Positions 36,001 to 39,000 of a stretch of 64,000 nt of DNA are shown here, piece after piece (position 1 is the first letter of the stretch; every line of letters begins with the position of its first letter). A program made the translations under genes and the position numbers. Origin of the DNA: Branchiostoma floridae (lineage: Eukaryota; Chordata; Leptocardii; Amphioxiformes; Branchiostomatidae). The DNA is taken from the NCBI RefSeq assembly GCF_000003815.2, contig NW_023365707.1, forward strand, positions 42,810 to 106,809. The letters are read 5' to 3'. The notes below the pieces were generated by a model. The model did not search any database. It saw only the letters and a program-made list of their open reading frames with translations, and was not told where the DNA came from.

Positions 36001-39000
36001 GCCATATACCCCTCAACTCACAGTATGGTAATAATCGAATTCAAAAGATCTCTTAAGCCTAGCTTAGCATGATTACATACAGTCATACTTTCCACAGTTT
36101 ATTTCGGACATTTGTAGGTATAGGAGCAAAATGTTCTGCTAGTTGATTTTCCATTGTTACCAATAGTTTTGGTTGAAAGTTAGTTTGAGAGTATTGTTTT
36201 TTGAACCAGTGGTACTTTCTACTTCCCAGATTTATTGTGATAAAAATTGATTGATTGAGTGATGATTGACTGATTTGTTGGAGACTGTGTTCTTATGCCC
36301 CCCTCCCCCAGTCCGCGGGTGTTCCGTGAACCGGTGATCTTCCTGGGCGCGGACGTGACCCACCCTCCGGCCGGCGACGAAAAGAAACCGTCCATCGCAG
36401 CGGTACGTTACCATGGTTACCTCCTGACCTCTGACCTCACCTCTTCTCTCTTCCAGTCCGCACATTTTCCTGGAGCCCGTCGTTTTTCTCGGCGCCGATG
36501 TCACGCATCCGCCGGCCGGAGATGGCAGGAAACCTTCGATAGCAGCTGTACGTCCGCACACTTTCGCTTCAAACATGCAAGCTTTTTGCCCTGTTTTCAG
36601 CAATGGTTTGGGTTTCCTGGCATGTTTGGACAATAAATTGCGCATGTTTCGAAAGGGTATAAAATAGGTGTAAAGCACCCGTTGGTTAGGATGGGAGGTA
36701 ACCTCCCAAAGCATTTGTTTCTTGACAAACGTTTGCTTCAATCTCACATGCTTTCGTCCCTCTGTTTTAAGCAGTTGTTTGCTTTTGCATGTATTAGTCC
36801 AAAACACCCAGCGGGGTAACTTGGCGCATGCTTGAAAAGAGTAACTTTTAAGACTCAACATATTTATCATTTCTGTCCTGAGAGTTTATTTTTCTGGACT
36901 GGAGCATTTCTGTAATTCTCACCCGCTTTTCTCTCTGCATTTTTTGCTGTGGTTTACCCTTTTATTCTGATGCAACCTGCTTGTCCAGCTGATTTTCCTC
37001 AAATCCTTAAATGTTAAAAATATGCACTAATATTTACAAACAACAGCTTAACCATACACAACACCTACAAGCCACTTTTTACTCGAATAATTTTGCATCT
37101 CACAATTATACACACTGTAAACTACACTTGTCCTGCTTGTTTAATACCCCGATGCATGTTGTATGACTGTATATTTATACATTTGATCCGAATGTTTCAT
37201 ATGAAAGCATTTTCCTTTCCAGACAGCAGCCATATAATCCTGCCTGTGCTACTGAATGGCTTGCAGTTTATACTGTTCTATTGTTTAAGGCCACGCGAAT
37301 ACATTTCTTTGGTTCCAGGACATTCTGAAGTCAAAATTTAGCAAAACGATGAAATGAAAATGAAGAGCTGGGAGGAAAATCGTAACTTCAATCTCAGCGA
37401 AACCCATGAAAATTGATTTTTGTGTTCCTGTACATGACTTTTGTGCAGAATCCATTGTTTTAGAGTTAGGAACCAGCAAATGGATTGGTGGTTTTCGCAT
37501 GGTGGTGTCGGGTGTGGCGTAACTGGTAGAACGTTCGGCTCGGAATCTATGGGTTCTGAGTTCGATTCCCACCGTGCCCCCGACGTTGTGCCCTTGGGAA
37601 AGGCACTTTACATGACTTTCCTTCTGTCTGTACCGTGTATGTGGCATTGTTAATATATAAGCTACAAAACTTGAGTGCAGTGCCACATCGTCCTCGTCTG
37701 TCCAAAAGCAAATAGAAAAAAAAGAAATGGATTGGTGTGGTCTTGTGGCATATTATGTTGTTTTTGCAGAGAAACTGTGCTTGTTTAGGATTGTGCTTGT
37801 TGTTATCCACTAACCACATGATTATGCATCAGGATTTAATGGACTGCTTTAAGCTTTTATATCTACCATACTGTGATCACCTAACATTGAATGCATTATG
37901 TTGCTTTGACTATGAGCATCGCATATAACAGATTGTGATTGAGAAATTGTGGACAAAGTGCATGTAGTTTTGATATTGTACAGTGTAGATCTCTTCAGTA
38001 CAAATGCAAGTACAGTGTATGTGTCATGACTAATAGCTTGGATTTAGCTAGTCTGTACAGTTTTGAAACAGAAAATTTGGTCACATCCTCTTAAAAAATG
38101 TGAATCTTTTTGAACAGAATATTTGGGAAGGATCTTCACTGCCCTTACATGTCTCTAGTTGTCCTTGGAGCAGGTGTCTTACTGTCCTCCTGATCTGTGT
38201 TGATACCACAGGTTGTAGGCAGCATGGACGCCCACCCAAGCCGATATGCGGCGACGGTCCGGATTCAGACGCACCGTCAGGAGATCATCGCTGACCTGGC
38301 CTCCATGGTGCGCGAGCTGCTCATCCAGTTCTACAAGTCCACCCGCTTCAAACCCACACGCATCATCATGTACCGCGACGGGGTCAGCGAGGGACAGTTC
38401 CAACAGGTCAGGGTTCAGGGGTTACAGGGCAAGGATTATAGGGCAGGGGTCAGGTTATGGTGTTGGAGCTGCTCATCCAGTTCTACAAGTCCACCCGCTT
38501 CAAACCCACACGCATCATCATGTACCGTGACGGGGTCAGCGAGGGACAGTTCCAACAGGTCAGGGTTCAGGGGTTACAGGGCAAGGATTATAGGGCAGGG
38601 GTCAGGTTATGGTGTTGGAGCTGCTCATCCAGTTCTACAAGTCCACCCGCTTCAAACCCACACGCATCATCATGTACCGTGACGGGGTCAGCGAGGGACA
38701 GTTCCAACAGGTCAGGGTTCAGGGGTTACAGGGCAAGGATTATAGGGCAGGGGTCAGGTTATGGTGTTGGAGCTGCTCATCCAGTTCTACAAGTCCACCC
38801 GCTTCAAACCCACACGCATCATCATGTACCGTGACGGGGTCAGCGAGGGACAGTTCCAACAGGTCAGGGTTCAGGGGTTACAGGGCAAGGATTATAGGGC
38901 AGGGGTCAGGTTATGGTGTTGGAGCTGCTCATCCAGTTCTACAAGTCCACCCGCTTCAAACCCACACGCATCATCATGTACCGTGACGGGGTCAGCGAGG

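Follow-up and report, generated by a model that had tools for sequence, protein, structure and literature searches.

Tandem exons for the slicer segment of Argonaute in two lancelet genes, probably an old pair of mutually exclusive alternatives

Argonaute, which silences genes by means of small RNAs, stands at the centre of RNA silencing, and each gene for it is regarded as having fixed catalytic and seed-setting elements. Here we describe a duplicated exon in an AGO-clade Argonaute gene of the lancelet Branchiostoma floridae, which lies in a stretch of 64,000 nucleotides (nt) that was analysed as a whole and is referred to as the window (C149:42810-106809, where C149 is the unplaced 159,249-nt contig NW_023365707.1). 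Two adjacent exons, 15A and 15B, encode alternative versions of the protein segment that carries the slicer aspartate D597 and the PIWI loop. Judged from the genomic sequence, they form a real, old and selected pair that is present in two genes, and they are very probably mutually exclusive. We favour the reading, at a probability of roughly 0.7, that the pair arose when an exon of an ancestral lancelet AGO gene was duplicated in tandem, before the gene as a whole was duplicated, and that the exon choice retunes the PIWI loop while the slicer set is kept. Splicing would then probably provide the lancelet with versions of a single silencing enzyme that are tuned differently. We infer that B is used in messenger RNA (mRNA), that exclusivity is enforced and that the choice between the exons has a biochemical effect.

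The gene model is complete apart from the exon with the start methionine, which was not placed, and the spliced model encodes 854 amino acids (aa) with 77% identity to human AGO2 (662/857, using a typed copy of the human sequence). The Pfam domains ArgoN, ArgoL1, PAZ, ArgoL2, ArgoMid and Piwi all scored above cut-off in the isoform B protein, and alignment of isoform A to human AGO2 showed that D597, E637, D669 and H807, the DEDH slicer set, are all retained; B also carries D597. Residue numbers follow the human AGO2 chain in PDB, and structural placement is based on this numbering together with published papers. The 19 introns of the isoform A model range from 288 to about 5,940 nt. An earlier note on this DNA had described two 91-nt exons with the same phase, good acceptors and identical GTACGT donors that lie 54 nt apart, and this geometry was confirmed, as were the counts given there, which we reproduced exactly: A and B differ at 28 of 91 nt, and among the 31 codons 17 differ silently and six change the residue, at 585 (R/H), 586 (V/I), 588 (R/L), 592 (I/V), 606 (E/G) and 607 (K/R). 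Both exons encode the same 11-residue stretch, and the motif GADVTHPP around D597 is identical. The repeat between them (106 nt) covers the full exon. The acceptors end in AG and have pyrimidine tracts of 88% and 94%, and both donors begin with GT. The positions of these features are listed in the table.

Table. Argonaute gene features in the window, and the corresponding exon pair on contig C17 (positions refer to the window unless a contig is named)
Feature	Position	Strand	Remarks
Argonaute (AGO-clade) gene	16666..41495	+	20 coding exons in isoform A model; stop codon 41493-41495
Constitutive exon 14, 160 nt	35799..35958	+	upstream of pair; donor ACG/GTATTA (slash marks the splice site), weakest 5' splice site of the gene
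Exon 15A	36312..36402	+	91 nt, 31 residues; D597 and PIWI loop (E606, K607); found in annotated Branchiostoma protein P0008
Intron between A and B, 54 nt	36403..36456	+	branch-point-like CTGAC, CTGAC, CTCAC
Exon 15B	36457..36547	+	91 nt, 31 residues; D597 and altered PIWI loop (G606, R607); L588, G606, R607 also in B' of paralog
First 400 nt of intron after B	36548..36947	+	four GCATG motifs, weak lead
Constitutive exon 16, 195 nt	38212..38406	+	in-frame joining to A or B; holds E637 and D669
Exon A'	C17 9114377-9114467		91 nt, open, AG and GT sites
Exon B'	C17 9114816-9114906		91 nt, open, AG and GT sites
Partial-copy regions	17592-17893, 18248-21097, 24459-25156, 34306-34373, 34917-35448, 38457-39282, 40200-40253, 40576-40623		

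Either exon alone joins exon 14 to exon 16 in frame, whereas inclusion of both leads to a stop at model residue 665 and skipping of both to a stop at 579. Because both or neither breaks the frame, exactly one of 15A and 15B would be expected in each mRNA, and this part of the argument for exclusivity in the earlier note holds. In the window gene the short intron between the exons would add a physical hindrance. Counted from the A donor, its branch-point-like adenines lie at 25, 32 and 37 nt; their distances to the B acceptor are 29, 22 and 17 nt. In mammals the minimum distance from donor to branch point is about 50 nt, and splicing from A to B would require an unusually short one, because these motifs sit only 25-37 nt from the A donor. 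When the 20 donors of the gene were ranked by human consensus frequencies, that of exon 14 came 20th, that of B 19th and that of A 14th; weak donors at exon 14 and B are as expected of regulated splice sites, although they fall short of proof. Downstream of B, GCATG, which we take to be an RBFOX-type motif, occurs four times against 0.44 expected (uncorrected for 8 motifs in 8 regions) and once in the matching stretch of the paralogous gene described below; the enrichment holds in the window gene and not clearly in the paralog, and offers a weak lead.

Comparison of silent and replacement changes supports an old duplication in which A and B have both been under purifying selection as protein. 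Between the two exons 20.5 of 25.0 silent sites differ (proportion pS 0.82) compared with 7.5 of 68.0 replacement sites (pN 0.11; Fisher p 2.5e-10), and since the silent sites are saturated, no silent divergence (dS) can be stated for A against B. In 20,000 neutral simulations in which 28 random changes were placed in exon A, 16.4 +/- 1.8 residues were altered (minimum 8), none of the runs gave six or fewer residue changes, and a stop was created in 37%. The observed conservation was never reached, and we rejected a neutral relic on this ground. Outside the exons the similarity is lost, with ungapped identities of 25% upstream and 30% downstream over 100 nt on each side. The age of the duplication and the selection on both copies, which the earlier note had proposed together with a comparison of the dN/dS type, are borne out by these values and by the second gene.

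We searched the window's own assembly (513,431,437 bases in 431 contigs) with the peptide encoded by exons 14-16; the matches fell on two contigs, C149 and C17, each of which has exon 15 in two copies, and this peptide search found no closer second copy of the window's exons. On C17, a contig of 19.1 megabases (Mb), positions 9101207-9121483 hold a second canonical AGO gene that is 93% identical to the first at the amino acid level over 851 codons, with a dS of about 1.4, and its matched exons are free of stops (these are exon matches, the whole gene not having been spliced). The intron between its copies A' and B' measures 348 nt. A and A' differ at 18 nucleotides and B and B' at 22, compared with 24-29 in the other four pairs, and the corresponding identities across genes are 82% and 78%, against 75% and 74% crosswise. 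Informative nucleotide sites favour the grouping of A with A' and of B with B' by 6 to 2 to 2, and three residue differences, at 588 (R/L), 606 (E/G) and 607 (K/R), are diagnostic of the two types in both genes. Because A is nearest A' and B nearest B', with three residue differences held in both genes, the exon duplication is probably older than the gene duplication, and both forms were retained in both genes thereafter. In the interval that separates exon 14 from exon 16, the genes match, at an expectation value (E) of 1 or less, over the exon copies and a few flanking bases; the sole intronic match in this interval spans 17 nt (E 0.1). Two such genes would allow four possible AGO forms.

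Elsewhere in the window gene, exons 3, 4, 6, 12, 13, 16, 18 and 19 have extra copies in neighbouring introns (blastn, E of 1e-3 or less). These are partial, covering 24-53% of the exon at 78-98% identity and including one exon end at most, and in places they are arranged in tandem, as with a 152-nt unit repeated 4.8 times at 38314-39042. A 21-nt match of exon 14 at 9406, outside the gene, was taken as chance. We rejected the idea that A and B are mere local duplication noise, since the copies of the other eight exons are partial, whereas A and B form a full-exon pair. Downstream of the window, C149:121767-121981 contains a partial copy of AGO exon 19, and the adjoining segments are 92-94% identical to window positions 51650-54373.

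The differences between the exons may bear on target binding. Human residues 602-608 form the PIWI loop, and a swap between human AGO2 and plant AGO10 alters affinity for seed-only targets; in human AGO2 the loop swap also leads to faster release of cut targets, according to the available parts of that work (PMC10240194). The same residues make up one side of a central gate that opens as pairing extends, and D597 is named as catalytic in the text available from a further study (PMC11893014). Two of the three type-diagnostic residues (606 and 607) fall within this loop, and D597 is unchanged. The earlier note had suggested two isoforms that perhaps tune slicing or guide loading; the alternative exons stand, while an effect on catalysis is less likely than one on target binding, because GADVTHPP around D597 is identical and because two of the three type residues lie in the PIWI loop. 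By analogy with the loop swaps, it is more likely that the A/B differences tune target binding through the PIWI loop than that they affect catalysis, and a targeting-tuning function of the pair is plausible. Both isoforms would keep the full DEDH set, their most consistent differences lying at 588 and at loop positions 606-607, and the exon switch would most likely alter targeting, such as seed strength or target release. The loop of exon A, GDEKKPS, also occurs in the crinoid Anneissia and the coral Paramuricea among the matches listed, and A may be the older form. Gly606 of B is common in the vertebrate proteins among the matches listed, and GDGRKPS was found in one protein, P0155. In the open-licence literature we found no paper on a tryptophan-pocket role of residues near 588.

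Three protein searches, from which we took the best 120 of 2,584, 887 and 1,019 matches, provided 319 distinct proteins. Among them, P0008 (argonaute-2-like isoform X3 from a B. floridae x belcheri hybrid, in a cluster of 26 members) carries A and agrees with the window protein at 54/54, 30/30 and 65/65 residues in exons 14-16. P0008 departs from the window model at two other junctions, at window positions 24357-24368 and 33327-33335: it has VNN in addition at the exon 11/12 junction, which fits a window donor lying 9 nt farther downstream, and STAG in addition at the exon 5/6 junction, encoded by codons directly 5' of window exon 6 that are not preceded by an AG.

Several observations weigh against the reading that we favour. 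The order of events, with the exon duplicated first, depends on 10 informative sites and three residues, drawn from 31 codons with saturated silent sites. Three of the A/B differences, at 585, 586 and 592, are not kept in the paralog, A and A' differ inside the PIWI loop at 603 (A/V), and the lancelet loop change comprises two residues, far below the plant-human loop swap. If both isoforms were made and were functionally equal, either exon would suffice and the splicing choice would amount to noise or dosage control; such equality is in keeping with the unchanged catalytic set, with the partly mild nature of the changes (V/I, I/V, K/R) and with the three differences that the paralog does not hold. 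Nevertheless, although silent sites are saturated, the types are told apart in two genes by three positions, two of them in a loop whose role in targeting has been demonstrated, and we consider functional equality unlikely.

Exon B was found in none of the best 120 of 2,584 protein matches, where the sole Branchiostoma protein, P0008, carries A, and the B donor is the second weakest of the 20. These points would suit a relic, with only A being used and B an old copy left intact by chance. With saturated silent sites, however, the frame and the catalytic motif of such a copy should be gone, as neutral change would be expected to alter about 16 residues and to create a stop in 37% of runs; in B' the frame, the splice sites and all three type residues are preserved, and among the introns of the two genes nothing of similar length can be aligned. 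It is very improbable that B is a relic. The 348-nt intron of the paralog removes the steric reason for exclusivity there, and exclusivity in that gene is therefore not due to a short intron. A steric block is insufficient as the general mechanism, and the short intron, which the earlier note had offered alongside the frame, does not stand as a general cause; competing RNA structures are a known cause of exon exclusivity. The longer intron also permits A'-B' splicing, and together with the premature stop in the A+B product it lends something to the view that the pair is an off switch, double inclusion being a regulated event that shifts the frame and destroys the mRNA. Yet a pure poison exon needs no coding conservation, whereas B and B' are conserved as protein, and in the window gene splicing from A to B faces the likely branch point close to the 5' splice site. 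An off switch of this kind seems rather improbable.

The window contig is unplaced, short and rich in partial tandem copies, as might be the case in an assembly artefact, with two alleles placed in tandem or with the contig being a haplotig or a contaminant. Against this, exon divergence of 31% together with introns that cannot be aligned is not allelic, the C17 gene, on a 19.1-Mb contig, shows this arrangement with introns that differ, the C17 AGO region and the window share a stretch of 377 nt outside the exons at 92% identity, and the window protein agrees with that of the hybrid. We rejected an allelic or haplotig origin on the paralog comparison, and there is hardly a chance that the pair is an artefact. 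The reading that we retain is that of a tandem exon duplication in the ancestral gene, followed by duplication of the gene and selection on both exons.

Further forms of this exon came to light in other animals. In 308 of the 319 proteins the best exon-15 match has Asp at the D597 position; five have Asn there, two Ser, two Glu, one Leu and one Ala. These counts are not frequencies, because the searches were biased toward variants. Seven of the 11 exceptions are molluscs, and the others include an aphid, a hagfish and an acanthocephalan. Asn is present in Magallana gigas isoform X4, Crassostrea angulata X3, Saccostrea X5 and C. virginica X2, and Ser in Haliotis cracherodii X2 and Dreissena X2 (the mollusc Asn and Ser forms are P0123, P0124, P0236, P0172, P0136, P0169 and P0006). 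P0166 of Bradybaena has Glu; it differs from P0264 in most exons, and we rejected it as an alternative exon and treated it as a paralog. The hagfish Myxine glutinosa argonaute-1-like isoform X1 (P0203) also has Glu at this position. We aligned 39 sequences, chosen from the matches and supplemented by lancelet and human, and compared 21 pairs exon by exon using amphioxus exon numbering. Saccostrea X5 (Asn) and Ostrea X7 (Asp) share 54/54 residues in exon 14 and 64/65 in exon 16; exon 15, with 25/30, is the one exon in which they fall below 86%. Between Dreissena X2 and Mya X3 the figures for exons 14, 16 and 15 are 54/54, 62/65 and 23/30, respectively; exons 1 and 20 are low too, which is also the case for Mya against Mercenaria. 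When C. virginica and M. gigas are set against Ostrea, the same drop in exon 15 is seen, with exon 11 differing as well and, in M. gigas, exon 3. Haliotis (P0169) against Patella is less clean, with exon 16 at 55/65 and other exons also low. As far as the aligned proteins go, the mollusc pattern is that of exons swapped in a mosaic fashion, and it shows most clearly in oysters and Dreissena.

Both exon-15 forms were not seen as separate proteins of one mollusc species among the matches listed, and the gene model of Batillaria P0006 reads through two exon-15 copies, GASITHPP first and GADVTHPP second. We disregarded several matches with doubled scores as coming from gene models that had been duplicated, fused or scrambled: those in Phthorimaea, Diaphorina, Naja and Amphibalanus after inspection of the whole sequence, and those in Calidris, Cirrhinus and Electrophorus on the basis of exon 15 alone. 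Doubled scores also occurred in Acipenser P0002 and Dissostichus P0191. Isoform pairs from the same species swap exon 11 in Pecten, Ylistrum, Aplysia, Lineus and Babylonia, and exon 3 in Ylistrum, and such block swaps in lophotrochozoan AGO proteins suggest combinatorial mutually exclusive splicing. The lophotrochozoan pairs P0239/P0245, P0242/P0244, P0268/P0270, P0185/P0188, P0231/P0235, P0123/P0124 and P0250/P0252 swap blocks at exons 3, 11 or 20 in the exon-by-exon comparison, or at exon 12 as judged by eye; P0123/P0124 come from two named oysters and each of the other pairs from one species. Inspection by eye gave no clear signature common to lancelet B and the mollusc forms, and for this reason we take the two as separate events, 31 residues being too few to settle the matter. 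A mollusc exon lacking the catalytic Asp is possibly a slicing-off form. We tentatively suggest, with some doubt, that the AGO slicer exon is a recurrent splicing switch in animals, lancelets retuning the PIWI loop and molluscs turning slicing off (oysters through D597N, Dreissena and less clearly Haliotis through D597S, with both forms in the one Batillaria model). The mollusc forms would suggest a natural on/off switch for slicing, which bears on how microRNA and slicing duties came to be split in bilaterians.

Three further reading frames were seen in the window. One, at 27919-30849 within AGO intron 7, is of the non-long-terminal-repeat retrotransposon type, with 977 residues and endonuclease and reverse transcriptase domains; another, at 4902-6302, has 467 residues and a Myb-like domain at its end; and the third, at 62805-63998, is TRIM-like with RING and B-box domains and has two similar stretches (75-76%) farther downstream on C149.

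In the open-licence literature (titles, the starts of abstracts and part of the matches) we found no report of mutually exclusive exons in an Argonaute gene, which fits the earlier note's remark that no such case was described for a chordate AGO gene. By term search, AGO1, AGO2 and argonaute are absent from the main text of a survey of human tandem duplicated exons (PMC9741552), and 'isoform' and 'splic' from the main text of a paper covering dog-whelk Argonaute (PMC6085071). An old and conserved exon choice that swaps the segment with the slicer Asp and the PIWI loop would, if true, make targeting rules open to change through splicing, per cell type and without new genes. It raises the testable question of whether a difference of two loop residues between natural AGO isoforms is enough to alter seed strength.

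Vertebrates, with AGO1-4, resemble the lancelet in having several AGO forms per animal, but theirs come from separate genes, and no diverged exon-15 pair in one vertebrate gene was seen among the vertebrate proteins in the matches listed. If the slicer exon is indeed a recurrent switch, animals with few AGO genes would choose slicing or targeting modes by splicing and vertebrates by separate genes. For the lancelet itself, a 2013 survey of Piwi and Ago genes described one Ago1 and one Ago-like gene, Bf-Ago1 with complementary DNA (cDNA) support; both belong to the Ago subfamily of Branchiostoma floridae, the available text of that survey makes no mention of the exon pair, and it counts one canonical Ago where this assembly has two that are 93% identical (PMC3735472). 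The nearest precedent is the NALCN channel with its exons 15a/15b and 31a/31b, which like the pair described here are tandem duplications at a functional core. In the parts of that study available, NALCN is mostly a single-copy gene in which key residues are swapped, and the alternatives arose at different exons in animal groups including molluscs; cloning and detection in tissues have established these alternatives, and it is the selectivity residue itself that they change, whereas the lancelet pair, known here from the genes, keeps the catalytic Asp (PMC3557258). The tandem exons of U2AF1 likewise give a core RNA-processing protein in two forms, although protein and function are different and exon usage is demonstrated there, as the accessible sections report (PMC6821156). 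Plant AGO10 and human AGO2, finally, vary in the same loop (human 602-608), which sets seed strength; as described in the available text, that variation lies between genes and kingdoms and involves the whole loop, whereas in the lancelet splicing would let a single gene exchange two loop residues (PMC10240194).

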